Made by a program: the position numbers and the translations under genes | Virus record (IMG/VR): IMGVR_UViG_3300025280_004535 | Location: 1 to 31,980 of that record | Direction: 5' to 3' (one strand) | Origin: a virus | Length of the DNA: 31,980 bases | Notes under the pieces: model-generated | What the model was told of the DNA's origin: nothing | The model's input: only the letters and a program-made list of their open reading frames with translations | The model's database searches: none | Part shown: piece after piece, positions 716 through 31,980 of the stretch | Position numbering within the stretch: position 1 is the first letter of the stretch | How the letters are laid out: each line of letters begins with the position of its first letter

Positions 716-717
716 AC

Positions 718-3026: not shown

Positions 3027-3030
3027 TTGA

Positions 3031-7228: not shown

Positions 7229-7231
7229 ATT

Positions 7232-10007: not shown

Positions 10008-10009
10008 TA

Positions 10010-11086: not shown

Positions 11087-11097
11087 GGATTATAATA

Positions 11098-11442
11098 ATG
11101 AACATATTTATTGATATTGACGACACAATTTGCAGAACACCAATTAATGGAGATTATGGTCAAGCCGAAGCGATACAAGATAGAGTAAATAAAGTTAATA
11201 GCTTATATGATGAGGGGCATGTAATTGTATTTTGGACTGCCAGGGGAAGTGGCACAGGAATTGATTGGACCGATATTACACAGCGACAATTAGAAGCCTG
11301 GGGAGTAAAATATCACCAATTGATGTTTGGTAAGCCCGTATTTGATGTTTTTATCGATGATAAATCGATTAATTCAGATATGTTTTTTGGCAATTTTGTA
11401 ACAAATGAAGAACAAACAGAACAGCCACAAGGTGAGGAATAA
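11098..11442 (+). CDS. Small HAD-superfamily phosphatase (polysaccharide-biosynthesis type)
   Basis: 114 aa. HAD motif I is FIDIDDT (D6, D8), motif II lies in FWTARGS (T47), and the conserved lysine plus acidic motif IV are seen in GKPVFDVFIDDKS (K79, D87, D88). Very short HAD proteins of this kind, with almost no cap, are common in capsule and LPS clusters, where they are thought to remove phosphate from a sugar phosphate. Here it could act on a nonulosonic acid 9-phosphate or another sugar-phosphate intermediate. An AAGGA-like site precedes ATG 11098. Confidence 0.75.
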   Translation: MNIFIDIDDTICRTPINGDYGQAEAIQDRVNKVNSLYDEGHVIVFWTARGSGTGIDWTDITQRQLEAWGVKYHQLMFGKPVFDVFIDDKSINSDMFFGNFVTNEEQTEQPQGEE

Positions 11443-11450
11443 AATATATT

Positions 11451-12737
11451 ATGCGTTTTTATAAAAATATAGAAGCCTGCAGAATTTGCGGTTCAAAAAA
11501 TCTAACTGAAGTAATACACATTGAAGATCAATATCTATCGCCCACATTTGTCCAAACAAATGTTAATAATCCTTTAGCCGATATTCGTGTACCACAAACA
11601 TTGGTATTGTGCGACAAAAGCGATAATAATGATGGCTGCGGCTTGTTACAACTTAAAGAAACAGTGGATCCTGATTTGTTATATCGTGAGTACTTTTACA
11701 GATCTGCTGTTAGCGATACTATGCGAAGGGATTTGCATGATGTTGTAGATGAAGTATTAAACAATACCCAAGTTACTGTACAGGATAATGATGTAGTATT
11801 GGATACCGGCGCAAATGACTGCACAATGCTCTCATATTTTCCAGAAACGCTAACACGAATTGGAGTGGAGCCAGCAAATAATATTGATTGGGGACACGTC
11901 CCAGATTCAATAAGCATTGTTAATGATTATTTTACATACGATGCTATTAAAGAAACTTTAGGCGATAAAAAGATTAAGATTTTAACTTCTTGTGCCATGT
12001 TTTATGACCTAGATGAGCCAAATAATTTTGTTGCAGATGTTAAAAAGACATTAGATCCGCAAGGTATGTGGTGTATACAGCTTAGCTATTTACCATCGAT
12101 GTTAAAAAATATTAATTTCTATGATATTTGCAATGAGCATTTAGAATATTATTCTTTGCAAACTTTGCACAATTTAATGGAAAGACATGGATTATCAATT
12201 TTTGATGCAACAACAAACCATGTTAATGGCGGAAGCGCTCGCGTGTTTATAACTCATAGCGAAAGAGAATTAGAAGAAACAGAGAGACTACAAGCATTAT
12301 ATAAAATGGAAGCTTCGTTAGATTTGAACAACGAGCAAACTTATTTTAATTTTAAAGCTAAAATTGACGAACTTAAAAACAAGATTAAAAGCACAATGTT
12401 ATCAGAAATTCAACAAGGAAAATTAGTATTAGGTCTTGGGGCATCTACCAAGGGCAACATGCTACTGCAACTTTTTGATATAGGCAAGGAGACAATTCCT
12501 TATATAAGCGAAAGAAACCCAGAAAAAGTGGGCTTAAAAACACTTGGCACAGATATTGAATTAATCTCCGAAGAAAGAGCAAGAGAGCTAAATCCAAGTT
12601 GCATGCTTGTTTTGCCATGGTATTTTAAAGATGAAATCGTTAAACGAGAAAAAGAATATTTAGAAAATGGCGGCAAGCTTTTGTTTCCCATGCCGTACCC
12701 ACACATAGTACATAAAGATGGAGAAACACAACTATGA
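11451..12737 (+). CDS. Sugar C-methyltransferase, NovU/TylC3-type
   Basis: 428 aa with the full three-part architecture of this family. An N-terminal zinc-binding part has C10, C13, C54 and C63. A SAM-dependent methyltransferase core has its glycine motif in VLDTGANDCTM (about 116-126). The C-terminal domain begins near the GASTKG motif (about 330-335). Family members C-methylate the C3 carbon of 4-keto-6-deoxy NDP-sugars or act on related cassette sugars. The substrate could be the product of the RmlB-like dehydratase or of the E1 homolog in this cassette. The 3' end overlaps the next ATG by four bases. Confidence 0.82.
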   Translation: MRFYKNIEACRICGSKNLTEVIHIEDQYLSPTFVQTNVNNPLADIRVPQTLVLCDKSDNNDGCGLLQLKETVDPDLLYREYFYRSAVSDTMRRDLHDVVDEVLNNTQVTVQDNDVVLDTGANDCTMLSYFPETLTRIGVEPANNIDWGHVPDSISIVNDYFTYDAIKETLGDKKIKILTSCAMFYDLDEPNNFVADVKKTLDPQGMWCIQLSYLPSMLKNINFYDICNEHLEYYSLQTLHNLMERHGLSIFDATTNHVNGGSARVFITHSERELEETERLQALYKMEASLDLNNEQTYFNFKAKIDELKNKIKSTMLSEIQQGKLVLGLGASTKGNMLLQLFDIGKETIPYISERNPEKVGLKTLGTDIELISEERARELNPSCMLVLPWYFKDEIVKREKEYLENGGKLLFPMPYPHIVHKDGETQL

Positions 12738-13633
12738 AAGTTCTGGTAACAGGCGGAACTGGCTTTGTGGGAAAACGTCTACAATCGATTAAACCAAATT
12801 GGATATATATATCTTCTAAGGATTACGATTTAGTAGCTACGGACGACTGCAAAAGAATGTATAATGACATACAACCAGATGCAGTTGTACATTTAGCGGG
12901 CAAGGTCGGAGGTATAAAGGCAAACGATATGAATCCAGCCGATTTTTATTACATTAACACGATGATTAACACTAATATCGTACATCAAGCTAAAGAATGC
13001 GGAATTAAGAGAGTATTATCTTCTTTAAGCACTTGTACATTTCCTGATGTCGTGCCAAGCTATCCATTAACAGAGCAAGATATTTTATGCGGACCCCCAG
13101 CCATTACCAATATGTCTTACGGTTATGCTAAGCGAAGTTTATATATTCAATCTAAAGCCTACCGTAAACAATATAATCTAGATTATTCTACATTTTGTCC
13201 ATCGAACCTATATGGACCAGAAGATAATTTTGATTATGATAGCTCGCATTTTGTCTCCGCACTGGTTCGTAGATTTTTCGAAGCTAAAAATGGCGATACA
13301 CTTGAATTTTGGGGCTCGGGAAATGCATTACGGCAGCAATTATTTGTTGATGATTTGGCTCATATCATCCCCATGTTGCTAGAAGAGCATCATAGCGATA
13401 TTCCAATAATTGTAGCACCAAACGAAAATTTGTCTATTTCTAATATGATTGATATTTTACGAAAATACATTAACAAAGATGTAAATATTAAATTTAATTC
13501 GCATCTAGATGGACAATACAGAAAAGACGGTAGTAACGGCAAGCTGCTAAATATGATTGGCAAATTTAACTTTACACCATTTAAAGATGGCATAAAAACT
13601 ACGTATAACTGGTATAGTGAACAAAATGGGTGA
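12734..13633 (+). CDS. fcl: GDP-L-fucose synthase (Fcl/WcaG)
   Basis: 299-aa epimerase-reductase of the SDR family. GGTGFVG (7-13) binds NADP. KVGGIKAN (57-64), S99/C101 in SSLSTCTFP, the Y129/K133 pair in SYGYAKR, NLYGPEDNFD (158-167) and H172 in SSHF match the catalytic set of GDP-fucose synthase. It turns GDP-4-keto-6-deoxy-D-mannose into GDP-L-fucose, using the product of Gmd, which is encoded one gene downstream. The two are separated by a sulfotransferase gene. Fucose made here would suit the GT10-like enzyme at 3031-3909. Confidence 0.9.
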   Translation: MKVLVTGGTGFVGKRLQSIKPNWIYISSKDYDLVATDDCKRMYNDIQPDAVVHLAGKVGGIKANDMNPADFYYINTMINTNIVHQAKECGIKRVLSSLSTCTFPDVVPSYPLTEQDILCGPPAITNMSYGYAKRSLYIQSKAYRKQYNLDYSTFCPSNLYGPEDNFDYDSSHFVSALVRRFFEAKNGDTLEFWGSGNALRQQLFVDDLAHIIPMLLEEHHSDIPIIVAPNENLSISNMIDILRKYINKDVNIKFNSHLDGQYRKDGSNGKLLNMIGKFNFTPFKDGIKTTYNWYSEQNG

Positions 13634-14543
13634 TATTGCCAACAGATACAAGCCGATATTTGGGGACAACCCCATGCGCATAAAGCCCCAAGATGAGCAA
13701 TTGGATGCTGAATGCTTATTGTTATCTTATCCTAAATCTGGAAATACATGGGCTAGATATATTGCAGAAACAATTTCAGACAGACCAACTATTGGATATG
13801 ATGTCAAATTACCTATACGACATGATTATCACAACTCATTAGATCATCCGATATATAGCAGAATTAATATATTTGGCGATCATTGGTCAAACAACGATGC
13901 TAGACAAAAATTTAATACATTTATCAACAACGAGAACATACTTTTAAAAAGACATACTTGGGATGACAAGGAGGCACATACTAAAAATGCCTATACAAAA
14001 TTAATCTTGATTGTTAGAAACTATAAAGAATGTCTTTTGCGAAATGATGTGCATATAGAAAGGTTATATTGTACGCAATGCACAGATGTAGATAAAGGAG
14101 AATTCTGCGATAGATCGCCTTTGCTTAAAACAGGGCATTCAAGATATTGCCATCATGCACACAAAGAAGTATATATATACCTTGACAATATAGAAAGATT
14201 TGATGAACATAAAGGTCCAAAATTATTAATTTACTATGAAAACTTGCTAATGAATCCAAAAGATGTTATATATAAACTAACAACATTTTTTAATTGGCAA
14301 ATGGAGAAAGCAGACAAGTTTGTTAGCGAATTACAACTCCATGAGCAAAGTAGCGTAAAACATTATATTTGGGGAGCAGAATCAGCCGTACAAAAAGATC
14401 CATATTGGCATTCAAGTAAGAAACTAAATGAGGATCCTACAATGTTGTATCAGGTCGATGTTGTTATGCGGCATAAAGCAGGTGCGTTATATAGCAAATA
14501 TTTAGAACGCTACGCGGAAAAAACTGGATTTGATTTAGACTGA
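13626..14543 (+). CDS. Sulfotransferase domain protein, paralog of the first gene
   Basis: 305 aa from ATG 13626; a GTG at 13617 is possible but no better supported. The canonical 5'-PSB motif SYPKSGNTW occurs near residues 35-43, the 3'-phosphate loop IVRNYKECL in the middle, and LLIYYENLLMN after it. The last two motifs are shared with the broken sulfotransferase at 1-715, including a 16-base exact match (14014-14029 and 236-251). It overlaps the fcl stop by eight bases and is wedged between the two GDP-fucose genes, suggesting a fucose-containing acceptor. It is probably PAPS-dependent and cytoplasmic. Confidence 0.78.
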   Translation: MGDIANRYKPIFGDNPMRIKPQDEQLDAECLLLSYPKSGNTWARYIAETISDRPTIGYDVKLPIRHDYHNSLDHPIYSRINIFGDHWSNNDARQKFNTFINNENILLKRHTWDDKEAHTKNAYTKLILIVRNYKECLLRNDVHIERLYCTQCTDVDKGEFCDRSPLLKTGHSRYCHHAHKEVYIYLDNIERFDEHKGPKLLIYYENLLMNPKDVIYKLTTFFNWQMEKADKFVSELQLHEQSSVKHYIWGAESAVQKDPYWHSSKKLNEDPTMLYQVDVVMRHKAGALYSKYLERYAEKTGFDLD

Positions 14544-14560
14544 CCGGAGGATGATATATT

Positions 14561-15535
14561 ATGAGTAAAACTGCATTAATTACAGGCGTAACAGGACAAG
14601 ATGGTTCATATTTAGCGGAAGAATTGCTAAAAAGAGGATATTTTGTTGTTGGGTTGAAAAGAAGAACATCAAGTATATCTACTGAAAGAGTAGATCACAT
14701 TTTTAATAATTCGAATTTTGAAATGAGATACTACAATCTACATGATGCAACCTGTATGTACAGACTTTTATCGGAATATGAGCCTGATGAGATTTATAAT
14801 CTAGGAGCACAATCTCACGTAAAAGTCTCTTCAGAGGTGCCAATAGAAACAATTGATACCATCGCTTTGGGTACAACAAAATTGCTTGAAGCCGTATTGT
14901 GGTGCTGCCCGGAAACCAGATTTTATCAAGCATCTTCATCGGAAATGTTTGGCGACAACCCCGAGAGCCCAAAAAATGAAAATACTGTATTTATGCCCGC
15001 TTCACCATATGCTTGTGCAAAGGTATGTGCACACCATCTTATAAGACATTATCGTGAAGGATATGGCATGCACGCGTCAAGTGGCATATTATTTAACCAT
15101 GAATCTCCACGCCGAGGCGAAACGTTTGTAACTAGAAAAATTACCAGAGCTGCTGCTAAAATTAAATTAGGTCTGCAAGATGAATTAAGCTTGGGTAATT
15201 TGTCCGCTCATCGAGATTGGGGATTTGCAGGGGATTACGTTGAAGCTATGTGGCTAATGATGCAACAAGATACGCCAGATGACTATGTTATTGCAACCGG
15301 CGAAACACATAGCGTAAAAGAGTTTTTGCAGACAGTGTTTGAACATGCAAAATTAGATTTAGATAAGCATGTAAAAATTGATCAACGATTATTTAGAAAA
15401 CACGAAGTGCCGCATCTATTAGGAGATGCGTCAAAAGCAAAAGAAAAGCTAGGCTGGGAACCAAGTGTTACCTTCAATGAACTAGCGATTATGATGTATG
15501 AATCAGATTTACAACAATTAACAAAGGAGTTATAA
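14561..15535 (+). CDS. gmd: GDP-mannose 4,6-dehydratase
   Basis: 324 aa. The NADP-binding loop is GVTGQDG (9-15), RRTSS (34-38) is the family's cofactor-phosphate segment, and NLGAQSHV (80-87), SSSEMFG (125-131), Y150/K154 in SPYACAK and [15 protein letters not shown] (179-193) are all Gmd signatures. It converts GDP-mannose to GDP-4-keto-6-deoxymannose, the substrate of Fcl. GGAGG lies upstream of ATG 14561. The length is slightly shorter than the usual about 345-370 aa. No GDP-mannose-forming enzyme is in the window, so the host or another region must supply it. This is the last glycan gene of the cassette. Confidence 0.93.
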
Positions 15536-17161: not shown

Positions 17162-17449
17162 ATGAAAACATTAGATTCATATCTTAAAGAAGCGATTGAT
17201 AACATACGAGATGATCGTGAAGTCACCAAAGAATTACTAGACGATGTTATTAAATATCTAGGTGCTGACGAATCTCGCCATAGAGAAGTAGGCGCAATAG
17301 CCGCCAAATATGTAGAAACCTTGCAACGTTCCAACGAACAGCTTGTAAAGGTTTCTTCTTTATTACAGAAAGAAAAAACAAGCTCCACTGGCTTGACTAT
17401 AGACGACAAGGAAGAGATATTCGACCTTATAGGGAATAGCGTCAAATGA
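17162..17449 (+). CDS. Small helical phage protein of unknown function
   Basis: 95 aa with GGGAG eight bases before ATG 17162. The sequence is almost entirely charged and helical, with a likely coiled-coil stretch AAKYVETLQRSNEQLVKV (about 46-63). No characterised domain is recognised. A 46-base gap separates it from the sigma factor, and it overlaps the hub gene by four bases (ATGA). It may therefore be the first gene of the tail operon. A DNA-packaging or tail-assembly adaptor role is possible but unsupported. Confidence 0.65.
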   Translation: MKTLDSYLKEAIDNIRDDREVTKELLDDVIKYLGADESRHREVGAIAAKYVETLQRSNEQLVKVSSLLQKEKTSSTGLTIDDKEEIFDLIGNSVK

Positions 17450-19095
17450 GCGTAGAACAGCCAGAATCGACCCCGGATACTGCTAATGCAAGCGCACCAT
17501 CAACCTCTGCTGGTTCATTAGGGGGGCTCCCGCCGTTAGATCAATTTGAATTTATGAACGAGAGCGTTGTGGAAACTCCTGTGATAACTCCCAATATAGA
17601 TCTCAAACGGGCAAACCCGTTTGAGGTAATGATGCGCTCAATCGACAAATTTTCAAACCCATCCTGGCTTGACGGACCTGGGGCTGGCACCGGGCTTAAA
17701 GCAATTGTGTTGCGAGTCGAAGATGACGGTTCCGATCCCAATTCATCGGAGGCTAGTGGATGGATCGGAGCCTGGAACAAGCTCAAGGACCAATTTTCAG
17801 CCATGTCACCGCCACCAGTGCTTCCAAGAGTAAAAGTTTATATCCCCAAGCTAGATTCGGATATGCCGTTCCCAGAAACTTATGGAAATAAAGACAATCC
17901 AGCAGCAGACCATAATTTAATTAATATGTTTCAAACTGCACAATGTGCAGATGAAGCGCTAGCAGGCGGAGGAGGCTCAACTGGTGGTCAAGGATGCCCT
18001 GGACCTGGAAGCATTGTTGAGGTTCAATTTGAAAATTTAATAAACCGCACCGGCTTAAGATATATTAAAGTAATTCAACATGTTGCAGGCGATGAAGGCT
18101 CGTCCCCAGGCGCGGGTTCAAATTTTGCAAACCAGGGAGGCGTTCTAAGCGCAGGCTCGGCAGAAGGTGCAGATCTTGAAGGAGCTTCATATACGGGGCA
18201 AGGAGTACCAGCCGAAATTTTAGTAACAAAAGACAGTTATGTGGGCGATAATCCCACCCTCCTTCCACCCGCAGCAGGAAATACATACACGAAAATTTGT
18301 TTGCCACCATCTCATCGAACAGCACGGGAAGGCTGGCCAGGTAAAGGTACCGGCGCAGCCGGTATTAGGCTATATCGAGCAGTGACCGAATTAAAGGCAT
18401 TTGTTAATGCAAGATTGGGAGAAGGTTATTGCGATTTGGGGCACTTAGGATCGGTTAGAGATTTAGAGAGCACATTTCAGCCCGGTGCGCCAGGAGCACC
18501 AACTAGGGTTGCAACAAGCAAACATGCTGTGGGATTAGCACAAGATATATATTTTTATACCAAAGCGCTAGACGACCAAGGCGTTGTTGGAGAACAGGTA
18601 GTATGCCCGCTTTCGCATGTGGAAGCCAACAAAACAATGCAGGTTCTCGCCCAGCAACGTGGATGGGGAAACATTACGCCTGATAATTATAATAGAATAG
18701 TAAATGACGAACCCCTCATTAGAGCAGTAAATGATTTTTTCGAATTGCCAGAGAACGGAGATCTAGTATGGGGAGGGCACTTCGGCGGCAATAATGCTTC
18801 ATGGGGCAGAAAATCATATGATTGGGTGCGCATGGGCACAGCCGGTGAGATGAAATCTATACGTATTGATGAAATACATCACATTGAAATTAGAGATGGG
18901 GCAGAATATTGGACAGAGTACATGGAACCATTATCTCCATATTTACAAGCAGCAGGCATACCAGTTCCTATGCAACAATCAGATTTATCGCAAGTGCTTC
19001 CTGCAATCTACAGCGCCATAAGAGAGGGTAACATGACAGCAATGGGAGACTTCGAGATGCCAGGGGCTGTTGTAGATGACGAGGCAGTAGTATAA
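17446..19095 (+). CDS. Baseplate hub/central spike protein with M15-type peptidase domain
   Basis: 549 aa. A flexible Ser/Thr/Pro N-terminus is followed by a beta-rich part (about 80-215, with AIVLRVEDD, PRVKVYIPKLD and GSIVEVQFEN) that looks like the OB-fold of gp5-type spikes. After a Gly/Ala-rich linker, residues about 300-485 resemble M15/VanY D-Ala-D-Ala peptidases, with zinc ligands H360 and D367 in SKHAVGLAQD and H479 in EIHHIEIR. The protein probably cuts peptidoglycan during genome injection. T4 gp5 uses a lysozyme instead, so this is a domain swap. The start overlaps the upstream stop by four bases. Confidence 0.7.
   Translation: MSVEQPESTPDTANASAPSTSAGSLGGLPPLDQFEFMNESVVETPVITPNIDLKRANPFEVMMRSIDKFSNPSWLDGPGAGTGLKAIVLRVEDDGSDPNSSEASGWIGAWNKLKDQFSAMSPPPVLPRVKVYIPKLDSDMPFPETYGNKDNPAADHNLINMFQTAQCADEALAGGGGSTGGQGCPGPGSIVEVQFENLINRTGLRYIKVIQHVAGDEGSSPGAGSNFANQGGVLSAGSAEGADLEGASYTGQGVPAEILVTKDSYVGDNPTLLPPAAGNTYTKICLPPSHRTAREGWPGKGTGAAGIRLYRAVTELKAFVNARLGEGYCDLGHLGSVRDLESTFQPGAPGAPTRVATSKHAVGLAQDIYFYTKALDDQGVVGEQVVCPLSHVEANKTMQVLAQQRGWGNITPDNYNRIVNDEPLIRAVNDFFELPENGDLVWGGHFGGNNASWGRKSYDWVRMGTAGEMKSIRIDEIHHIEIRDGAEYWTEYMEPLSPYLQAAGIPVPMQQSDLSQVLPAIYSAIREGNMTAMGDFEMPGAVVDDEAVV
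17602..17625 (+). repeat. 10-bp perfect inverted repeat near the 5' end of the hub gene
   Basis: CTCAAACGGG (17602-17611) pairs exactly with CCCGTTTGAG (17616-17625) around a four-base CAAA loop. It lies inside codons 53-60 and no U-run follows, so it is not a standard terminator. It could form a stable mRNA hairpin. Confidence 0.85.
18348..18364 (+). repeat. 7-bp GC-rich hairpin inside the hub gene
   Basis: TACCGGC (18348-18354) and GCCGGTA (18358-18364) pair around GCA, extendable by two G-U pairs. Coding sequence; significance unknown. Confidence 0.5.
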
Positions 19096-19096
19096 T

Positions 19097-20008
19097 ATGG
19101 CTTGTAAGTTTAAAATAAATAAGTTTATGCAACGCGTAGAAGAATTGGATTTAGAATCATTCTTGCCACAAATTAAATGCTCGCCACAATCAACAGTAGC
19201 CCCACCATTGGCATCAAATCTTGACAATAAATCTGAAAGGCAACAGCGTACACCTTTAAATATTGATTCTCATATAAATTTTGGCGGGAAAGCAAGTGAG
19301 TTACTCGTTGAACGTTTTAAGCAGATATATAACACAAAAAAATATATATGGCTTGACGACGGCGCACCTTATTATTTAAATTTGATAGCAATACGAAATT
19401 CTTCGCCACAACGACATTACGATGATTTATTATACGTATGTTATAGAGATGAAGCTTTAGTTTGGCGCGTTCATGTATATCCGATCACTACACAACCGGG
19501 ATATCTACCAGGAAAAAATCTAGCTATGGCACCTGGACAATATATTAAAGCTTACCAGATTGGACACACCATTGATGACAAGCCAGATGTTCGTTGGGGG
19601 ATCTTGGGAAGAGAAGAAGGTCGAGCTTTAGTGCAAAGAAGACATCTTTATGCTCCTGCATATTATATATCAGTTAACAATGGCGAATTAAGAAAACAGT
19701 CTTTAAAATCAACAGCATATGCCTCAATACGACCAGCAGGCTATCGTTCGGGGGAATTCGATATATATGCTTTACCTGAATATTATGACGAGTACAATGT
19801 AACCGACAAATATAAAGGTCACCAGATATTCCAATCTTTTAAAGATTTTACTTTTTTTATGAATTTGTGTGAAAAAATTGCTCAATTTAGGGCAACTGCG
19901 AACAATATTTCTACTGCCAAATGGAATAGTGATGAGTCCATTACATATACTTTAATATTAGATACAGATATGGGATTGCAAGGAATTCCTGGACAAAATA
20001 AATTATGA
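19097..20008 (+). CDS. Tail/baseplate-associated protein of unknown function
   Basis: 303 aa, starting one base after the hub stop. The central part (about 109-190) has WRVHVYPITTQPG, LAMAPGQYIKAYQIG and ALVQRRH. The pattern of V/Y strands, TTxPG and a PGQY motif recalls an uncharacterised domain found in phage and phage-derived proteins, often near cell-wall-active tail proteins; I know no demonstrated activity for it. No signal peptide or membrane segment. Its position between the peptidase hub and the spike-like gene, with a four-base overlap to the latter, suggests a structural or cell-wall-directed tail role. Confidence 0.65.
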   Translation: MACKFKINKFMQRVEELDLESFLPQIKCSPQSTVAPPLASNLDNKSERQQRTPLNIDSHINFGGKASELLVERFKQIYNTKKYIWLDDGAPYYLNLIAIRNSSPQRHYDDLLYVCYRDEALVWRVHVYPITTQPGYLPGKNLAMAPGQYIKAYQIGHTIDDKPDVRWGILGREEGRALVQRRHLYAPAYYISVNNGELRKQSLKSTAYASIRPAGYRSGEFDIYALPEYYDEYNVTDKYKGHQIFQSFKDFTFFMNLCEKIAQFRATANNISTAKWNSDESITYTLILDTDMGLQGIPGQNKL

Positions 20009-20928
20009 GCGATTTAAAAAAAACTATTGATAGATCTGGAGCTTTTAGTCGTAATGTTGTAGGCAAGCAAGCAAACAAAACATTACAGGAAAGATATTAT
20101 GGTGCGGCAGGCGATATTCCAATTGAAGGACTGCCAAAGAGAATTGGTACGCCTAGGGAAAAAATATATTCAAATCAAAATGCTTATATAGTCTTAGGAG
20201 GAGACAGACCAGGAAGCAGACTATCAGGATATGCCGGTAAAGGCGCAACTCAATCTGCTGCCATCGATCTTGTTGTTGGGCTCGGTGGACCAACACCAGA
20301 ATCGGACAAGCACGTAGATCCAAACATACAAACAGATGCGGCTAGAATTTATATTAGTCAAAAAACCGATATTGATCAAAATTTTAATTTATGCCAAGGA
20401 TCGGTAGGCAGTCCCAAATCTAGATCGGCTATAGCGTTAAAAGCCGATGGCGTTAGGATAGTCGGGAGAGAAGGAATTAAACTAATTACAAATACTGAAG
20501 ACACAAACTCTAGAGGCGGCAAAATCAGAAGCACTGCTGGAATTGACATTATAGCTGGCAACAGAATTGACGGCTCGCACTCGCTCCAGCCCATGGTTAA
20601 AGGAGATAATCTAATTGAATGTTTAGCAGATTTAGCTGATCAGATAGAAGATTTGGCCAATATTGTACATGATTCATTAACAGACCAAATGAAATATAAT
20701 CAGGCGATAATGACGCATGTACATGTATCACCATTTTATGGAATAATGACCAGTCCCTCTCAAACAGTCATGCCGGAAGGAGGCGAAGCAATGATGAACC
20801 ATCTTGAAGGTGGTGTAATCCCTGGATTTCAAAATTCGCTAAATTTGGGCGTGACCTGGAGAAGAAAGTATTTACAGGCAGACGGCGGTACCGCTTATAT
20901 TTGCTCAAGATTCAATAAAGTAAATTAA
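20005..20928 (+). CDS. Spike-like virion structural protein with THxH motif
   Basis: 307 aa. A G/S-rich segment with LGGDRPGSR and SGYAGKG (about 64-79) leads into strands DLVVGLGG, AARIYISQKTDID, KSRSAIALKADGVRIV and GREGIKLIT, a beta-rich pattern seen in trimeric spike or fibre proteins. After a helical stretch, THVHVSPFYG (237-246) resembles the THxHxxxxG motif at the end of baseplate-V/gp138-type spikes, where HxH residues (here H238 and H240) of three chains can hold an iron ion. The C-terminus has more strands. This suggests a central-spike component next to the peptidase hub. The call rests on motifs and context. Confidence 0.6.
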   Translation: MSDLKKTIDRSGAFSRNVVGKQANKTLQERYYGAAGDIPIEGLPKRIGTPREKIYSNQNAYIVLGGDRPGSRLSGYAGKGATQSAAIDLVVGLGGPTPESDKHVDPNIQTDAARIYISQKTDIDQNFNLCQGSVGSPKSRSAIALKADGVRIVGREGIKLITNTEDTNSRGGKIRSTAGIDIIAGNRIDGSHSLQPMVKGDNLIECLADLADQIEDLANIVHDSLTDQMKYNQAIMTHVHVSPFYGIMTSPSQTVMPEGGEAMMNHLEGGVIPGFQNSLNLGVTWRRKYLQADGGTAYICSRFNKVN

Positions 20929-20937
20929 GAAATTATT

Positions 20938-23900
20938 ATGGCAAACGATATATATGGCAATTTAAATATACTTGATAGTGCACTATCTGATTCCGTCGTA
21001 GAAGCCGCCGAATCTGAAGAGGGGATTAAAAACTTAATCAGTTCCGATGGAGGCGACCCATCTGATTATTATATTTGGGAAAGAAAACTAGTTTTTGGTG
21101 AGCAAACCAAATGGGTTGCAAAAAAACGCGTAGGCGCTGGCGGTGTAAGTGGTATATTTGAAAACACAGAAGATTTTGGTATTAATGAATGTTATACACG
21201 AAAATGGTGCTTAAATACATTATGCGCGGACGATTTATTGAAAACTGGACACGATGTAAGTGAATTTACTATTAAAAAAGAAAATAATCAATTTGCCATT
21301 ACTCTTAATGATTTTTCCAAATCGCAAAAAAAGGCCAGACGATTTTTCACTCAGGTCACCGTCGCTGGCTCACCGTTATGGACTCGCGTTGATTCTGCCA
21401 CAATTGATTCTATAGTAAAAAAAAGCAAGTATTCCATTACGAAAAATAGTCCAATATTCGATTGTTTTGACGATCCAAGATGGGTGCCAAATTTAAATGC
21501 AACCCCTAGAGATTGGATAGCGCAACAAACCAATAGTACATGGCTTGAGCCAAGCACAGCACGTTATACTTGTGCTGTTAATAGCTTGTATGAAACATAT
21601 GATGGACAGGAAACAACCCGACAACAAGACATGATAGAACAAGCAGCAGAAACAATTCTTGGACATTTTGGTAAAAGCCCGACCCAAGAAGAAATTGATG
21701 TATTGTCTTCAATTGCGAAATTTGACGAAACATATATTGATCCAAGACCCGGCAGTAGAATGCGAGGTAAAATATCTCTCTCGGCTAAAGAGACAGATAT
21801 TTTGCTTAAGCAAATACCAGATAAAACAGCTAGCCATCCCGACAATTTAAAAACGGGTCCATCTGTAGAAGATATTGAAGGGCTAGGTGGCTGGATCGGC
21901 TCTGATGCTACAACGACTCAAGCTTCAGCGCCGACTCAAAAACAAATAGCGGCTGATCCGTCTGCATCGGGAGCAGCAGGAACCCCGACAGATGAAGAGC
22001 ATATAGGCGGGCAATTAGAAGTTGCATCTTATTCGTTATCTGATATGGCATCAAATATAGAAATAGTTGCGCAAGCATTAGAATATTTTGCCAACACTAA
22101 TGAAAAATCTGAGACTCCGATTAAAATTATGTCTAGCGTTTTTGGCTTTGATTTATTAGATGAAGCAAAGCGATTAAGACAAGTTGTACCAGAGATTAAA
22201 AAATTATTAAAAAATAATAATGCTAGCCAGGATGGCACCATAGAAATGGCAATGGATTTTGATTGTTCAATCCCCAACGTAAACATTGTTCAAGTTTTAC
22301 ATAATAGCGAACACTTAACAAAGGGAATCGAGCAGTTTATGGACTCAGAGCCGATAAGAAATGCGATGACGATGAATTATGTGGCAAAACTATACGACAT
22401 GGTTGGTTTTTTAAGAAATTCGGATCCGCCAACAATGCTAGATTTTATTGATAGATTTACTTTATCCGATATGTCGTTTCGAATGTTCACACCAGACGAA
22501 CTTTCTCGACTTGGCAGCAATCCATTTAGCAATTCGTGCTCATCAGCATTTAAAGAAAATGGTGGAACTCTAACGGAAAAAATATCAGATACGCTAAATG
22601 ATTCTCCAATAAAAACCTTGTTAGACAAAAAGAGAGAAGATGCACATTTGGGCTCACCAGAATTAAGACAAACAGTTAATTCCGAATCAGGAAAAACATT
22701 AGATTATGTTGGTGATAATCTTTTTGAATCTCCATCTGATCTTAATAAAGAATTATCTGGCGCAGACGGCGATAGTATATTTAAAAAATTGCTAAATAAG
22801 GTAAATTATAGAGATTTGATAGTAGCTCAAATTGAAGCCTGTTTGAGCGAAATGGTGGCACAAGGACGACTGGACATAGTTGTAAAAGCCTTACAAAAAT
22901 ATCCAAGACTAGCCGATTTGATGAATTCTAATAATAGTTGGGATATCTATAGTAGCATCGATGGACTTAAACAAGGTAGCAGTGGTGCGCTACAAGGAAA
23001 TAAATTTGGATTTAGCGTCCCCGGCTACCCCAATTCGCTTACGATGGTGTCAGATTTTGAAGGATGCTTGCCTGCATTAAAAAAGGGCGAGTTCGAACCA
23101 AAATTACCCAGCGGTATGGATCCTGCAGATTTAGATTTATCTGATGTTGATAATCTAGACGATTTGGACATACCTGATATTGATCTTCAATTTCTTAAAG
23201 ATTTAGAATTATCTGGAATTAATCTTAAAAATTTAGATTTGTCTGGAATTAATCTTAAAGATCTGGGCGGATTTGATTTTGGTAAATTAAATATAGATTC
23301 AATACCATCATTAGAACTTCCATCGCTTGACAAATTTGATCTTTTTGGTGGCGACCGGGGCTCACTCAAATCAATGACAAAGGGGGCAAATTCAACTTTA
23401 AATGGTATAGTTGGCGGCACACTTAGCGGATTTCTTGATGGGATATTAGGAAGTATGCCAGATTTCAAAGGATTGGACTTTGCAGGGTTTGATCCAGATA
23501 TAGATCTTGGCGGCATGCTGGGTTCACTTAAAGATCTTGATCCGCCAGATCTACAAAAATATCAAAAACTTGCAGGTCTTGATTTGCAATTTGGAGAATT
23601 TAATTTTATCGATATTTTATCCGAATTTAAAGGTTTTGAACTAGGAGCATTTGATTTAGATCTAGATCTCTGGCAAGATTTTTTTAACAATTGCTTCTCA
23701 AAAGACAATAGAAAGAAAATTTTAAACTTACAAAAAAGCCTATTTCCTGATGGTGATCACACCAAATTTGATTTAAGATGGAATGATTTTCTTAAAGGAA
23801 TTGATTTATCATTAAATCCCATTGAGTTATCCAAATTATATCAAGGCAATGCTGACGATGATTTATTGAGAACAGTGCGAGAAAAAATAGAGTTCGATTT

Positions 23901-26900
23901 TCCTGATTTTTCTCTCGGATTCCCAAATAACGCGTCAATTTCTGATTTTTTCAAATCAATGGGAGACAATGTTGATTGTGACAGTTTATCTAAAATTGCA
24001 TTACCATCATGGGATCTCGTTCTAAAAGGATTAAACTTGAAAAAGTTTAAATCTAAATTTTCAGATAAAACAGGAATAGTTGCTAATTTGGTTGAAGATC
24101 TCCTGGCATCTAAAAACGATGGAAAAATTACTGCTGATGAAATAGCACAAGCAACAGTTGATGTATTAGCACAAAAAGAAAAATGCTTATTTGGGGCATT
24201 AAGAAATTTCGATCAAGGCAACCCCTTAAAGGGTGCCATGCCGCCACTAATCGGCAGCCCGAGTGCGTTGATTCCCAATTTACCACCTAGAGTCGCACAA
24301 GCGGTAGATATTACCCTAGATTCTATTATTGATCCCGTTATAATAGCATTTAATAGCGATGCGTCAGAATGGATAGATTCACTTTATTGTATAAACTATG
24401 ACTATTGGGACAATTATGAGGGTCATTACCTGAAAACTGGAGCAGACAGGAGCCCAAACGGCACGTTGCCGGGCATGGGCGGATGGGGTGGCGGGATCGT
24501 TCCTTTTCACAATATGTCAAACTACTTCGAGTCACAGATGTCTAAAGCAACGGGCGCGATCCCCCTCACCACTGGACCTCCATGGGACTCGGATGATAAA
24601 CTATTCCAGATTGGAGTAGCAGACGAGCTTATAGAAAGCATTATAGCGGCATCTGCAACATCTGTAATAATGCCAGGACCAGGGGGAACCACAAACACAA
24701 CAATTCTATATGATATAGATCGCTTTAATTATCCAACTCCTTGGTGGGCTCGAACCGAGTCATTAAAACAAATAGCAAAATTAGCACTTATGGCTGGTTT
24801 ACCAGGAATGCCAAAGAAAGAAATAGCATGCGAATATTTTAGCACACTTGGCTGGACTCCCACGCAGGGGGTTGACCGTCTTGTGGAGGTCAACGAGCAC
24901 ACCCTCAGCGGACTGTCCATCGAAATCAACGAGCCAAGGGCGTTGTCTAAAAATAGCGGTTTGCCACTTATAAACTTAGAACATTTTATGCCTGCTGCGT
25001 GTGTAGACACTTATGTGCCAAAAGATGAATATCAATTAGTAATGCAAGGGTCCACCACAAAAATGAAACCTGATACAGTTGTACCAAGAGTTGATGTGTT
25101 TGGGGCACTCCGGGTGAGGAATTTGTATGATAGCGGCTTAAGAATTGAAACGGTACGTAGTGCTATTACCGACGCTGCCAGTCCCATATTAGAAGGTGCA
25201 AATGCTACATTGCTTGGCTTCAGCGACAGCAACGCCGAAAGCACAGGTCAGCGGTCAATAGATCAATCGCAAATATTTGCATCGATGATTGTAAAAAGCG
25301 CACAAGATTTATTACTCCCTATAACAAGCCCTGGCACAAACGAAGCAAACATTAAATCAGCATTAGATGATTTACATATCAAATTCAAATCCAAAAAATG
25401 GAGCGAATATATGGAAGATCTTTACAATAATATTTTTAATGAAGTAGCGAATTCATCATTAAATAGCTTCTCTGCGTTAAATTCATTAACATTGACACCA
25501 TCTACAGAAGATGCATGTGGATCTGGTGTACCTATAGATTTAATGAATGCCACAGAACATAAAAAGGATGCAAAAGACCTATTAAATAAACTTCTTTTTG
25601 ACGATAATGCAAAGACAAAACAAAAATTATCCCCTGTACGGGAAGTCGGGGCAGAAACAATTGTAGGTTTAACGATTAGACTATACATTGTAGAATTTTG
25701 GTTGAAAAATCTATTCTTATTATCCGAATTTAAATGTTCCGAATTACTACAAAATTCTGAAGTACCAAATTTTATACAGTCTAAAATAAAAGAGGAGCTT
25801 GAAGACAGAGGATATTATGAAGACTTTTTGTGCGTTTTAGAAAATCTATATAATAGCAAACGCGAACAAGAAGAAGAATTACCTCAAGCATCCGACAGGG
25901 AAGATATGTTGGCAGCATTAATTGATATCGAGATGAAGAAAGCCGATTTTTTTGATGAAATAATTGGTGAAGATTCGATGAACATACATGACCACTTATT
26001 GCGAAAATGGATACCATTAAGAGAGGTAGCCGATGTCGGCTCGTCACCCGCCCCTGCCGACGCGATTAATGAAAATATATGTTATCAAGAAGCTAAAGAC
26101 TTCGGCACAGCATATGGATATACAACATATCCCACTTATTGCGGCAAATCGGGAGCAGGCGCAGGATGGTTGGGCTCAAATTCACATAATTGGCAATCAG
26201 GCTATGGTGCCAACGGCGAGGGCAAATGGAATGTTAATAATTATGAAAAAAAATACCATCATGGTTTTGTTTTAGAGCGTTATATTAAAATTGATGACAC
26301 CGACCTGTCCAACTTGCAGCGCAGCAATTCAAGTTATGGTACACGCCATGCAATTTCGAACCTTGGACATTCAGGGTTGTTTGGTACGTGCAATATTGAA
26401 GCATTCCAAGATTTTATAAACGAACGACTCAATATGACCGGCATTGATACTAGCAATACTGTTGAAGATTTCTTCGCAGGAGTATCATATGGACTTAGAT
26501 TAAGTTATGTAGATTTTGATAGTACAGACCACGACAACGATGACATGCACGCGGACGCTTTCAACTCCGGGGTCGCGCTGCACGACCAGATTCCCATCGG
26601 ACTCCCCGGCAACGCCAACGGTGACACATATTTTCATGCATGGGGATATCAACCTAATAGTGGTGTAGATGGCACCGGAGAAGCTGCGCCAAATAGCGTA
26701 TATGCAACGTTGTTTGGTGCAGGGGGCGCAAGCCGGGGCGAATTAAAAAATAAAATCAGGGAAGAAAAAGCTTTTTGTGTCACAGAGGGTGGTCCATGGA
26801 ATGCGCCTAAACCATATGAACTGTCGGGACGTGCAGGAGATCGTTGGGGAGATCTGGATGACGATGCGAAACCCCTCTCCGCAAATGTATATGTATTCCC

Positions 26901-27711
26901 ATTAATAGAATCAGAAGTGTGCATCGATCCAACAACCACCCTAGGCGAATTAGTAGATGGAAATGTATTTGCAGGTTGGGAAGAATCACATGAACAATTA
27001 CTGACCAACCTAAAAGAATCCGAGGGCTATGATTTATTATTTAATTATTGTTTTCAAGTTAAAAGAAACTTAGAAATAGCCTCAATATACTCATCAGAAA
27101 CGTTATCTAGAACACAAAATTTAGAAGACAGATTTACACACACTAAGCGAACTTTAGAAAAAGCGCTTCATCGTATGACAAAAGGCGGCACTTATGGTTA
27201 TAGAGATCCAGATATTAAAAACAAAGGCGGCTTCGCTGGTGAGCATTTATCAGCGTTAAACCTGCAATCAGCAATGCAATCGGGGGCTTCGGGCAATGAT
27301 ATTGATTTTGAAAAACTGATGATACAACTTAGAATAAAGACCCCATTTCTTATCTTACAGGGGCTTTGTGAGCAATTCGACCCTTGTGTCAGCATTGCTG
27401 CAAAAATTGTTGATGCAATGATACTTTTAGATCCTGGATTATCTTGCTATCGTGGAGAATTAACAATTGGCATTATAATGGTAATGTGTTTTATTCCATG
27501 GGCACCCAAGCCAACAGCGTTTGGAATTATATATATTGTCATTACATTGGCAATGGAAGCATCCGGTTCACCAGGACCGGGAGAAAAATCAAATTGCCGT
27601 CGTTTGGGACTATTTGGAGATAGTTATGATAAGACAATTGACTCAAGTAAAAAATATACAGGCGACATCGACGGACAAACCAAAACTATACAAAAACCAG
27701 GAGATTGTTAA
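20938..27711 (+). CDS. Giant (2257 aa) virion structural protein, function unknown
   Basis: An uninterrupted frame of 6.8 kb. The order is: N-terminal globular part (1-320), an Ala/Thr/Pro linker (about 323-355), helical region, an L/D/N-rich pentapeptide-like tract (about 731-800) with a second related L/D/F-rich tract (about 841-920), then several hundred residues of mixed alpha/beta with Gly/Tyr-rich loops near 1715-1766. Close to the end are two hydrophobic segments (about 2176-2208) around PWAPKP. There is no signal peptide. I recognise no known fold. Its position between the spike-like protein and gp25/gp6 makes a baseplate or tail role likely. It is not obviously a tape measure: no long coiled coil is seen. 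No clear ribosome site precedes ATG 20938. Confidence 0.75.
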   Translation: MANDIYGNLNILDSALSDSVVEAAESEEGIKNLISSDGGDPSDYYIWERKLVFGEQTKWVAKKRVGAGGVSGIFENTEDFGINECYTRKWCLNTLCADDLLKTGHDVSEFTIKKENNQFAITLNDFSKSQKKARRFFTQVTVAGSPLWTRVDSATIDSIVKKSKYSITKNSPIFDCFDDPRWVPNLNATPRDWIAQQTNSTWLEPSTARYTCAVNSLYETYDGQETTRQQDMIEQAAETILGHFGKSPTQEEIDVLSSIAKFDETYIDPRPGSRMRGKISLSAKETDILLKQIPDKTASHPDNLKTGPSVEDIEGLGGWIGSDATTTQASAPTQKQIAADPSASGAAGTPTDEEHIGGQLEVASYSLSDMASNIEIVAQALEYFANTNEKSETPIKIMSSVFGFDLLDEAKRLRQVVPEIKKLLKNNNASQDGTIEMAMDFDCSIPNVNIVQVLHNSEHLTKGIEQFMDSEPIRNAMTMNYVAKLYDMVGFLRNSDPPTMLDFIDRFTLSDMSFRMFTPDELSRLGSNPFSNSCSSAFKENGGTLTEKISDTLNDSPIKTLLDKKREDAHLGSPELRQTVNSESGKTLDYVGDNLFESPSDLNKELSGADGDSIFKKLLNKVNYRDLIVAQIEACLSEMVAQGRLDIVVKALQKYPRLADLMNSNNSWDIYSSIDGLKQGSSGALQGNKFGFSVPGYPNSLTMVSDFEGCLPALKKGEFEPKLPSGMDPADLDLSDVDNLDDLDIPDIDLQFLKDLELSGINLKNLDLSGINLKDLGGFDFGKLNIDSIPSLELPSLDKFDLFGGDRGSLKSMTKGANSTLNGIVGGTLSGFLDGILGSMPDFKGLDFAGFDPDIDLGGMLGSLKDLDPPDLQKYQKLAGLDLQFGEFNFIDILSEFKGFELGAFDLDLDLWQDFFNNCFSKDNRKKILNLQKSLFPDGDHTKFDLRWNDFLKGIDLSLNPIELSKLYQGNADDDLLRTVREKIEFDFPDFSLGFPNNASISDFFKSMGDNVDCDSLSKIALPSWDLVLKGLNLKKFKSKFSDKTGIVANLVEDLLASKNDGKITADEIAQATVDVLAQKEKCLFGALRNFDQGNPLKGAMPPLIGSPSALIPNLPPRVAQAVDITLDSIIDPVIIAFNSDASEWIDSLYCINYDYWDNYEGHYLKTGADRSPNGTLPGMGGWGGGIVPFHNMSNYFESQMSKATGAIPLTTGPPWDSDDKLFQIGVADELIESIIAASATSVIMPGPGGTTNTTILYDIDRFNYPTPWWARTESLKQIAKLALMAGLPGMPKKEIACEYFSTLGWTPTQGVDRLVEVNEHTLSGLSIEINEPRALSKNSGLPLINLEHFMPAACVDTYVPKDEYQLVMQGSTTKMKPDTVVPRVDVFGALRVRNLYDSGLRIETVRSAITDAASPILEGANATLLGFSDSNAESTGQRSIDQSQIFASMIVKSAQDLLLPITSPGTNEANIKSALDDLHIKFKSKKWSEYMEDLYNNIFNEVANSSLNSFSALNSLTLTPSTEDACGSGVPIDLMNATEHKKDAKDLLNKLLFDDNAKTKQKLSPVREVGAETIVGLTIRLYIVEFWLKNLFLLSEFKCSELLQNSEVPNFIQSKIKEELEDRGYYEDFLCVLENLYNSKREQEEELPQASDREDMLAALIDIEMKKADFFDEIIGEDSMNIHDHLLRKWIPLREVADVGSSPAPADAINENICYQEAKDFGTAYGYTTYPTYCGKSGAGAGWLGSNSHNWQSGYGANGEGKWNVNNYEKKYHHGFVLERYIKIDDTDLSNLQRSNSSYGTRHAISNLGHSGLFGTCNIEAFQDFINERLNMTGIDTSNTVEDFFAGVSYGLRLSYVDFDSTDHDNDDMHADAFNSGVALHDQIPIGLPGNANGDTYFHAWGYQPNSGVDGTGEAAPNSVYATLFGAGGASRGELKNKIREEKAFCVTEGGPWNAPKPYELSGRAGDRWGDLDDDAKPLSANVYVFPLIESEVCIDPTTTLGELVDGNVFAGWEESHEQLLTNLKESEGYDLLFNYCFQVKRNLEIASIYSSETLSRTQNLEDRFTHTKRTLEKALHRMTKGGTYGYRDPDIKNKGGFAGEHLSALNLQSAMQSGASGNDIDFEKLMIQLRIKTPFLILQGLCEQFDPCVSIAAKIVDAMILLDPGLSCYRGELTIGIIMVMCFIPWAPKPTAFGIIYIVITLAMEASGSPGPGEKSNCRRLGLFGDSYDKTIDSSKKYTGDIDGQTKTIQKPGDC
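23212..23259 (+). repeat. 18-bp direct repeat, 30-bp period, encoding LSGINLK units
   Basis: TCTGGAATTAATCTTAAA occurs at 23212-23229 and again, identical, at 23242-23259. In protein it forms part of a five-residue-period run (xDLSG / xNLKx) like pentapeptide repeats. Confidence 0.85.
24850..24945 (+). other. GC3-rich patch in the giant gene
   Basis: Within an AT-rich gene, 25 of 32 codons here end in G or C (for example runs such as GTG GAG GTC AAC GAG CAC ACC CTC). A milder patch lies at about 24460-24600. Confidence 0.6.
26527..26625 (+). other. Strongly GC3-rich patch in the giant gene
   Basis: 28 of 33 codons end in G or C (GAC CAC GAC AAC, then CTC CCC GGC AAC GCC AAC), flanked on both sides by A/T-ending codons. 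The frame is open through it, so it is translated. Confidence 0.7.
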
Positions 27712-27714
27712 ATA

Positions 27715-28107
27715 ATGGCTGGATTATCACCAAAATTACCTTTAAGACGAGACTTCACTGATGGATATGCATTAAATAAAAATTTTAGGGATCTAGTAAA
27801 GCAAAATTTTAAAATGTTATTATTAACAATTCCTGGCGAACGAATGATGATGCCAAAGTTTGGTGTTGGCTTAAAAAGATATTTATTTGAATTAAATACC
27901 CAAGCGAATAGCAACATAATACAAACAGAGATTAGAACTCAAGTTCGTCGCTATCTGCCATTTATAAACTTGGAAATAATTGATATACAATCATCAAATA
28001 CAGATCCTACAATATCTAATAATTTTTTAAGCGTTTCAATTAGATATCGAATTGAGCCTTTAGGCAATTTAAAAGATGTATTAACTGTTAATATTGGTGA
28101 TCTTTAA
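27715..28107 (+). CDS. 25: Baseplate wedge protein, gp25-like
   Basis: 130 aa, the usual length of gp25/GPW-type wedge proteins with a lysozyme-like fold but no lysozyme role. The pattern DLVKQNFKMLLLTIPGER, MMPKFGVGLKRYLFE, IIQTEIRTQVRRYLPFINL and a final strand SVSIRYRIEPLG is characteristic, including the GE-R and FG-GL-RYLFE motifs. It forms the inner wedge ring that links the hub to gp6 and starts sheath assembly. It begins three bases after the giant gene's stop and precedes gp6, as in many contractile systems. Confidence 0.88.
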   Translation: MAGLSPKLPLRRDFTDGYALNKNFRDLVKQNFKMLLLTIPGERMMMPKFGVGLKRYLFELNTQANSNIIQTEIRTQVRRYLPFINLEIIDIQSSNTDPTISNNFLSVSIRYRIEPLGNLKDVLTVNIGDL

Positions 28108-28174
28108 TCAATAAGAGCAATTAATTCAAGTATAAAATTACTTAAATGAGTAATTATAGTTGAGGTGGTTGACA
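28108..28174 (+). promoter_or_regulatory. 67-base gap with an AT-rich hairpin and TATAAAAT, before gp6
   Basis: The longest gap in the window. AATTACT (28136-28142) pairs with AGTAATT (28149-28155) around TAAATG. TATAAAAT at 28131-28138 differs at two positions from the T4 late consensus TATAAATA. AGGTGG (28164-28169) is the ribosome site for ATG 28175. A late promoter is possible but weak. Confidence 0.3.
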
Positions 28175-29974
28175 ATGGCAAACGATAGAAAGAATTTAGC
28201 AATTAAATATACAAGCAGAGACTTCAACTCCATCAAACATGATTTAGTTGAATATGCAAAAAGATATTACCCTGATACTTTCCAAGATTTTAGTGAGGCA
28301 TCATTTGGGGCGTTAATGGTTGACACAGTAGCCTATATAGGTGATATATTATCATTTTATTTAGACTACCAAGCAAATGAGTGTTTTTTAGATAGCGCAG
28401 TTGAATATAATAATGTAATTCGGTTAGGCAAGCAATTTGGATATAAATTTAGAGCCGCGCCATCTTCGCATGGTACCGTCACATGCTATATTCTAGTGCC
28501 AGCCGCTGATTTGGGCTTGGGACCAAATACTTCATATTTACCAGTTTTGAAAAAAGGTTCTACTTTTGAAACTAAAAATGGCAACATGTTTACATTAGCT
28601 GAAGATATAGACTTTGCTAACACAAACAATGAAGTTGTAGTTGCAAATGCCAACTCAACGACTGGTATTCCAACCTCTTATGCTATAAAAACAGAAGGAA
28701 GGGTAATGTCGGGCGACTTGAAAGTTAAAAAATTTACAGCGGGCAATTTTCAAAAATTTCTCAGATTCGAACTCCCCGGAAGAAATACTTCAGAAATAGT
28801 ATCAGTAATTGATGCAGAGGGGCACCCATATTACGAAGTAGATTACTTATCTCAAAATACAGTTTATGCCAAAATACCAAACACCTCTGATACAGAACAT
28901 AATACTCCAAATATTTTAAAACCAGTTATAGTTGCTAGAAGATTTGTAGTCGAACGCGAGAGAGGCAAAACGTTTCTTCAATTTGGCTATGGTTCTGATA
29001 GCGAGATGAAAAATGCATCTATCGCAGACCCAGCAGATTTAGTTTTGCAAAGACACGGCAAATCTTATATTACTGATGTATCTGTAGATCCGGGCAATTT
29101 AACCAAAACAGATAAATTTGGCATCGCACCCGCCAACACATCATTGACCGTTATTTATCGTGTCAACACCTCTGATGGCGTCAATGCATCCGCAAATTCG
29201 GTCACTAGAGTAGTGAACCCAACATTTAGATTTAAAAATACAACAAGTTTAACCACAGAATTAAAAAACTTTGTCATGTCTTCATTGGAAGTTACAAACG
29301 AAGAACCAATAACAGGCGATATATCATTACCGAACACAACAGAACTAAAAAGAAGAATTACTGATGTATTTGCGACACAAAATCGAGCAGTAACGCAAAG
29401 CGACTACAAGGCTATGATTTACTCAATGCCTGGAGAGTTTGGAGCAATTAAAAGATGTCACATCGTTCAAGATCCAGATTCATTTAAAAGAAATTTGAAT
29501 ATGTACATAATATCGGAAAATGTAGATGGCACCTTAATTCCAACAAATAGTGTAATAAAGGAAAATATAAAAACTTGGCTTAATCGATATAAAATGATAA
29601 ACGATACTGTAGATATATTAGATGCTAAAATAGTCAATTTAGGAATTGATTTTGAAATTTTAACAGCACAAGAGGCTAATAAATTTGAAGTATTAAATGG
29701 CGCTCTTAGAGCATTAAGACAAAGTTATAGTAGCCATTATGATATAAGTGAGCCATTTTCCATAGCCGCTATATACAGAATATTAAATCAAGTAGCTGGA
29801 GTAGCCGACACTCTAAACGTAAAAGTTTATAAAAAATCTGGTGGAGAATATGCTAGTAATCGATTTAACGTAACGGCAAACCTAACACCTCAAGGAAGGC
29901 AACTATTAGCTCCAGAGAACGTAGTTTTTGAAATTAAATTTCCAACTGCTGATATTAAGGGAACAGTCACATAA
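28175..29974 (+). CDS. 6: Baseplate wedge protein, gp6/baseplate J-like
   Basis: 599 aa from ATG 28175, which has AGGTGG at the right distance; a TTG at 28160 in the same frame is less likely. The N-terminus (NLAIKYTSRDFNSIKHDLVE, then ASFGALMVDTVAYIGDILSF and YLDYQANECFLDSA) is the hallmark of gp6-type wedge proteins in T4-like phages. The middle part has the baseplate-J beta domains, and AVTQSDYKAMIYSMPGEFGA (near 405-424) is the conserved segment after them. It dimerises to build the inner baseplate ring with gp25. The stop overlaps the next ATG by one base. Confidence 0.87.
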   Translation: MANDRKNLAIKYTSRDFNSIKHDLVEYAKRYYPDTFQDFSEASFGALMVDTVAYIGDILSFYLDYQANECFLDSAVEYNNVIRLGKQFGYKFRAAPSSHGTVTCYILVPAADLGLGPNTSYLPVLKKGSTFETKNGNMFTLAEDIDFANTNNEVVVANANSTTGIPTSYAIKTEGRVMSGDLKVKKFTAGNFQKFLRFELPGRNTSEIVSVIDAEGHPYYEVDYLSQNTVYAKIPNTSDTEHNTPNILKPVIVARRFVVERERGKTFLQFGYGSDSEMKNASIADPADLVLQRHGKSYITDVSVDPGNLTKTDKFGIAPANTSLTVIYRVNTSDGVNASANSVTRVVNPTFRFKNTTSLTTELKNFVMSSLEVTNEEPITGDISLPNTTELKRRITDVFATQNRAVTQSDYKAMIYSMPGEFGAIKRCHIVQDPDSFKRNLNMYIISENVDGTLIPTNSVIKENIKTWLNRYKMINDTVDILDAKIVNLGIDFEILTAQEANKFEVLNGALRALRQSYSSHYDISEPFSIAAIYRILNQVAGVADTLNVKVYKKSGGEYASNRFNVTANLTPQGRQLLAPENVVFEIKFPTADIKGTVT

Positions 29975-31488: not shown

Positions 31489-31980
31489 ATGGCTATTAAA
31501 AAACTATTTGGCAATGTGCGAGATATACCCACTATTGAAGGTAGTCGCCCAAGTCAAGTTGAAGGCATAACAGGGATGATTGCATCAGCCAGTTTTGATA
31601 CATTGGTAGAATTTGGCATAGAGTCGCCAGAATATATTGAAGCCTATATTAAAGATAGGGATAAATTTATACCAGCAATTGATTTCACTACCGCATCTAA
31701 TTTTGCGAAATATGGTTCTGCTGAGCAATATTATGAAGATGCTGTCACAAGAATACATAGGGCATATCCCTACGACGGTTCAGCCAAAGAAAGGCTTCAA
31801 TGGCACAACAGTTCTTCATATTTAGATCGATATGTTTTTGATAAATTATACCCTAGAAGACACGGATACGCTCAATTTGCATATGATGGCTGGGGAACGC
31901 AAGTTGACAGCGCGAATGGATATGGAGCAACAGCAACCGCATCATATGAATATGTACAAATTAAAGGTGGTCCTCATGCC
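31489..31980 (+). CDS. Virion structural protein, 3' partial
   Basis: ATG at 31489, three bases after the upstream stop, and open to the window end (164 codons). It starts MAIKKLFGNVRDIPTIEG and contains PYDGSAKERLQWHNSSSYLD and YVFDKLYPRRHGYAQF, with no recognised enzymatic motif. The segment resembles the N-terminus of large structural proteins that follow gp6 in marine T4-like phages, probably peripheral baseplate or fibre-attached proteins. Its true length and C-terminal domains lie outside the window. Confidence 0.65.
   Translation, partial: MAIKKLFGNVRDIPTIEGSRPSQVEGITGMIASASFDTLVEFGIESPEYIEAYIKDRDKFIPAIDFTTASNFAKYGSAEQYYEDAVTRIHRAYPYDGSAKERLQWHNSSSYLDRYVFDKLYPRRHGYAQFAYDGWGTQVDSANGYGATATASYEYVQIKGGPHA

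Follow-up and report, generated by a model that had tools for sequence, protein, structure and literature searches.

What does a protein of 2257 residues contribute to a contractile tail when its gene lies between a spike-like gene and the genes for gp25 and gp6? The window (the whole stretch of 31,980 nucleotides that was analyzed, from record IMGVR_UViG_3300025280_004535) carries the gene order spike-lysozyme, spike-like gene, giant, gp25 and gp6, which is that of a T4-type baseplate operon:

17446..19095, plus strand: probable spike-lysozyme, 549 aa (SxHxxGxAxD, M15-like by motif; Pfam only at E 0.31)
20005..20928, plus strand: spike-like gene, 307 aa (a gene of ~300–330 aa stands at the equivalent place in most relatives)
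20938..27711, plus strand: giant baseplate-module protein, 2257 aa (intact ORF; assigned to its family by C and M profiles)
27715..28107, plus strand: gp25 wedge protein (PF04965, 1.8e-15)
28160..29974, plus strand: gp6 wedge protein (phrog_219/6, ~1e-19)

The giant frame is uninterrupted from ATG to stop, beginning 9 bases after the end of the spike-like ORF and ending 3 bases before the start of gp25. Homology to relatives extends along its length (N, residues 1–700; M, 948–1155; C, 1987–2206), so the reading frame called in the initial annotation is a genuine gene, not one open by chance, and it is among the largest in these phages.

The surroundings of the operon

In relatives the ORF two upstream of the giant carries VanY (L012), M23 (L026, L072) or SLT (L013) domains and, judged by these domains, is a spike-lysozyme in which the catalytic hydrolase has been swapped. 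Between spike-lysozyme and spike the window has a 303-aa ORF (19097–20008) with no family match that is missing from most relatives. Ahead of the spike genes are two others, one sigma-like (phrog_234, 2.7e-5) and one FmdB-like, and ORFs matching in size and order are found in G001, a 195-kb relative. Positions 1–15535 hold a sugar-modification cassette of three sulfotransferases, a GDP-mannose 4,6-dehydratase, epimerases, a GT10 fucosyltransferase, a DegT aminotransferase, a C-methyltransferase and a B12/radical SAM gene. At the other end of the window, after gp6 and a 503-aa gene, lies a second very large ORF (31489–31980) that shows no similarity to the giant by blastp; it continues in L004 (at least 2827 aa), and its counterpart at the equivalent position in G001 has 3968 aa.

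A family nearly constant in its position

In environmental viral contigs, gp6 searches detected no fewer than 597 related stretches, and about 225 loci were gathered with gp6 as the anchor. Of the gp6 loci, 156 had 2.5 kb or more of sequence ahead of gp6, and in 152 of these an ORF matching the M or C profile stood beside gp25–gp6. Complete fused giants span 1240–3026 aa (median 2118), three extended records have longer ones of 3479, 3531 and 3818 aa, and the M domain is present in 120 upstream ORFs. Profile matches in the searched loci are confined to the ORF or ORFs at the giant position, the exceptions being L025 and a rejected match in Microcystis phage Mel-JY01 (see below); in L025 three ORFs (324, 170 and 264 aa; 7200–9525) separate a 1896-aa giant from gp25. 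Each of the long records G001–G004 has at most one M match, and G001–G003 have one C match each; G002 is not matched by a small M profile, and its locus (L117) is matched by a larger one. No second copy of the giant was found in the long genomes tested. On profile evidence the giant is thus a member of a large, previously unlabelled family and not an orphan, and the baseplate type that contains it looks common, the family having no named or structurally studied member in the collections searched.

Given its position, its operon partners and its constancy across the phylogeny, the giant is best read as a structural protein of the baseplate, and from gene position it is likely that it belongs to the virion baseplate and lies between the hub and spike-lysozyme on one side and the gp25–gp6 wedge on the other. 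Operon position does not prove a virion location, since chaperones and assembly factors can also occupy baseplate operons. The giant probably adds a further structural part to the injection device, and the account that we moderately favor is that of a modular scaffold for the contractile-tail baseplate, specific to a clade of uncultured marine phages that are relatives of Immutovirus and Mel-JY01. The earlier proposal, a component of the baseplate that T4 lacks, is supported both by this synteny and by the absence of the giant from the named T4-type relatives tested.

Modules and split forms

By profile and blast comparisons, N is followed by a D/L-rich linker specific to the lineage, then by M, a stretch of variable sequence, a block of helices and finally C. 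The window has the following parts:

20938..23007, plus strand: N module, aa 1–690 (jackhmmer, split forms, AlphaFold)
23128..23337, plus strand: D/N-L-rich tract, aa 731–800, described earlier as pentapeptide-like (periodicity test, jackhmmer, AlphaFold)
23779..24402, plus strand: M domain, aa 948–1155, helical (M profile, AlphaFold)
24403..25221, plus strand: variable stretch after M, aa 1156–1428 (AlphaFold pLDDT mostly <50; conservation in relatives)
25225..26019, plus strand: helical bundle, aa 1430–1694 (AlphaFold pLDDT mostly 80–95)
26896..27555, plus strand: C domain, aa 1987–2206 (C profile, AlphaFold; motifs EYxLLFxYxFP and TPxxIxKGxxExxDP)
27433..27561, plus strand: hydrophobic helical hairpin, aa 2166–2208, with turn PWAPKPTAFG (hydropathy, AlphaFold)

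The N module has a predicted alpha/beta core at residues ~178–300 and ~360–520 (pLDDT mostly 80–96), the helical bundle has local similarity to L010 and L064, and the family motif of the M domain, LTxxELCxLxNG, is degenerate in the window.

In several lineages these modules are encoded apart. L084 and L133 have three separate genes (622, 583 and 568 aa) and L050 has two (592 and 1316 aa), so that the N module stands as its own ORF of 592–622 aa in all three. The C domain is its own ORF of 310–612 aa in several relatives, among them six with a detached C gene of about 510–612 aa (L032, L034, L039, L053, L057, L059). A reduced form of 631 and 280 or 634 and 211 aa occurs in L214 and L216, with an M match that is significant in L216 and weak in L214. 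On a gp6 tree, from which the window's own gp6 was left out and whose deep branches are poorly supported, the reduced form, the three-way split and the six loci with a detached C gene fall into separate supported clades of their own, and they are therefore stable states, not sequencing breaks; the "split" labels of L025 and L047 on that tree are mechanical, and both were excluded from the split count. Because the patterns N/M/C, N/M+C and NM/C occur in separate clades, N, M and C can each be produced as their own chain at an unchanged position in the locus. The split forms also offer small expressible modules, so that what makes up the additional mass of the baseplate can be tested directly.

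Is the giant a displaced tape measure?

A large, largely helical protein with hydrophobic segments might be expected to be the tape measure of the tail, its gene moved into the baseplate operon and its hairpin corresponding to the membrane segment usual in such proteins, and one family member does reach a tape-measure profile (phrog_1272, E 0.011). The window's giant itself has no tape-measure match in PHROGs, members of the family vary between about 1.2k and 3.8k aa and may be divided among three genes, and the giant adjoins gp25 and gp6 and not the sheath and tube genes, contrary to the gene order of a tape measure. The split forms argue more generally against any function, such as this one, that needs a single continuous chain. 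In addition, G001 has a sheath match, a tube gene (phrog_4542) and a hub gene (phrog_150) followed by an 883-aa ORF with a coiled-coil-like N-terminus and eight hydrophobic segments, a separate tape-measure candidate whose presence disfavors that role for the giant. The phrog_58 tape-measure profile was negative in 12 of 12 long records, and the call on the 883-aa ORF consequently rests on position and hydrophobic pattern. We regard the displaced tape measure as very improbable and retain the baseplate scaffold.

Divergence along the giant

In all usable pairs of loci the giant has diverged more quickly than gp6, and in all except L083/L092 also more quickly than gp25 (L104/L131 was left out of the comparison owing to a wrong ORF pairing). 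L107 and L111, for example, are 91 per cent identical in gp6 and 92 per cent in the spike and 59 per cent in the giant, and the window and L005 share 85 per cent in gp6, 80 per cent in gp25 and 66.5 per cent in the C part of the giant. Mean identity across 42 pairs is 54 per cent in M. It is 47 per cent both in C and in the 400 residues that precede M, and 34–35 per cent in the stretches directly following M and directly preceding C. In L149 and L150, where gp6 and gp25 are 95 and 94 per cent identical, the giant falls to 15–25 per cent per 100 residues after M, a drop that suggests, from the alignment, an exchange of the middle part.

Fast evolution of this kind, with a middle that varies even between phages whose gp6 is nearly unchanged (L149/L150), would suit a host-contact protein, that is, a baseplate-mounted short tail fibre or receptor-binding adaptor with the stretch after M facing the host. 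Such a protein might be expected to vary at a tip, and here the variation is spread across the protein; the giant is moreover predicted to be mainly helical with an alpha/beta core, shows no fibre-like beta repeats and matches no fibre family. A host-contact role is accordingly judged unlikely relative to a structural one.

Fold prediction and the D/N-L-rich tract

No homologue of known function was found for the giant by sequence or fold in PHROGs, Pfam, the PDB or named phages. The window's protein had no match above chance in PHROGs or PDB sequences, and nothing over the cut-off in Pfam; tblastn against 50,697 named phage records was negative, as were named-phage searches with three other family stretches and one M fragment. 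The best Pfam hit (LRR_EndoS, E 0.076) and a 4yfo chain (E 0.73) fall on a low-complexity tract and were rejected as not significant. AlphaFold models were made in overlapping segments, residues 1–1187 (48 alignment rows; mean pLDDT 59.2, pTM 0.54) and 1150–2257 (56 rows; 61.5 and 0.58, its helical and mixed cores, residues 1769–2214 among them, being predicted with confidence), and neither retrieved a PDB fold below E 1. The absence of a familiar fold, noted at the outset, is thus borne out within the limits of moderate-confidence models built on noisy alignments (mean column identity 7–10 per cent), from which a remote fold could be missed. Profile and fold searches likewise turned up no match of the giant to a tape-measure or wedge family, the outcome that the initial annotation had set against its own reading. 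The C-half model does match three unnamed viral BFVD models (A0A516MAR9, E 3.8e-14; A0A516M7H3, 3.9e-6; A0A1B1IUR6, 1.3e-5), which on model similarity are presumed to belong to the same family.

A small beta-helix had been proposed at residues 731–800 from a five-residue rhythm. The rhythm exists but is weak: no in-register run is longer than four units, well short of a long A(D/N)LXX run, four or more units turn up in ~2.5 per cent of local and ~14 per cent of whole-protein shuffles, and hydrophobic autocorrelation peaks at lags 3, 5, 8, 10 and 13 with no clean 5. The beta-helix itself finds no support, the Pfam pentapeptide profile giving no match to the giant at E 0.1 and the tract being predicted as unstructured, without strands (pLDDT about 30–42). 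By jackhmmer it sits in a region of the window's protein that has no clear counterpart in relatives.

The C-terminal hairpin

The hydrophobic pair reported near residues 2176–2208 is real. The two highest 17-residue hydropathy windows of the entire protein start at 2173 and 2194 (mean KD 1.73 and 1.71), AlphaFold places helices at 2166–2183 and 2194–2208, and the feature recurs in many relatives: a window above 1.5 occurs in the last 160 residues of 47 per cent of 142 distinct upstream ORFs, compared with 15 per cent of other 160-residue stretches in the same proteins.

It could be imagined that the giant is ejected or membrane-active, the hairpin entering the outer membrane or lining the injection path on contraction, and both its recurrence with a Pro/Gly turn and the nearby spike-lysozyme are consistent with this. 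The subclade with L083, L086, L092 and L132 nevertheless keeps a short C core and has no hairpin, so that membrane insertion cannot be the core task of the family, and the hydropathy (about 1.7) is moderate enough for such short helices to be buried packing. A membrane-active giant is consequently held to be rather improbable. The chance is slightly slimmer that it forms an extra, very large modular ring whose hairpin would be freed on contraction to reach the host outer membrane, an arrangement without counterpart in known contractile injection systems. For the scaffold preferred here, a tentative arrangement is that the M and C modules would act as assembly surfaces on hub and wedge, the variable stretch after M would be exposed, and the hairpin would be a buried packing pair and not a membrane insert.

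Comparison with known systems

By gp6 the nearest named relatives are Immutovirus (Flavobacterium phage immuto) and Microcystis phage Mel-JY01, at about 31 per cent identity, and the G001 terminase is likewise nearest to Immutovirus (48 per cent) and then Mel-JY01 (44 per cent). The far-T4 group and its isolate RM378 have been described (PMC4360716), and relatedness to Immutovirus and Mel-JY01 would place the giant-bearing clade on the far-T4 side of the T4 superfamily. These two sister phages have no giant before gp25, only ORFs of 139–371 or 176–343 aa with no detectable homology (hhalign of the giant against them gave nothing), and its role may therefore be accessory. Neither M nor C was found in RM378, HTVC008M, S-PM2 or immuto, and matches in Mel-JY01 are weak; that of the M profile to a 131-aa Mel-JY01 ORF (E about 1e-8) was rejected as covering only a charged helical part without the LTxxELC motif. 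Because gp48 (phrog_230) and phrog_350, which were not detected in the giant-bearing clade, are also undetected in immuto and Mel-JY01, no argument from a missing gene can be made for the giant.

With T4 itself the shared element is operon context, gp25 and gp6 with a spike-lysozyme upstream; the giant has no sequence, profile or fold match to the T4 wedge and hub families (gp5, gp6, gp7, gp25, gp53), and a gp53-like LysM segment lies in another gene of G001. Adjoining that gene in the G001 tail cluster is a 1452-aa ORF (165386–169744; L237) with no family match. Oversized ORFs are also present in the marine T4-type baseplate operons of cyanophage S-PM2 (3048 aa) and Pelagibacter phage HTVC008M (1016 aa). 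Theirs, however, follow gp6, on the opposite side from the giant, where the window has a large ORF of its own (from 31489 onward).
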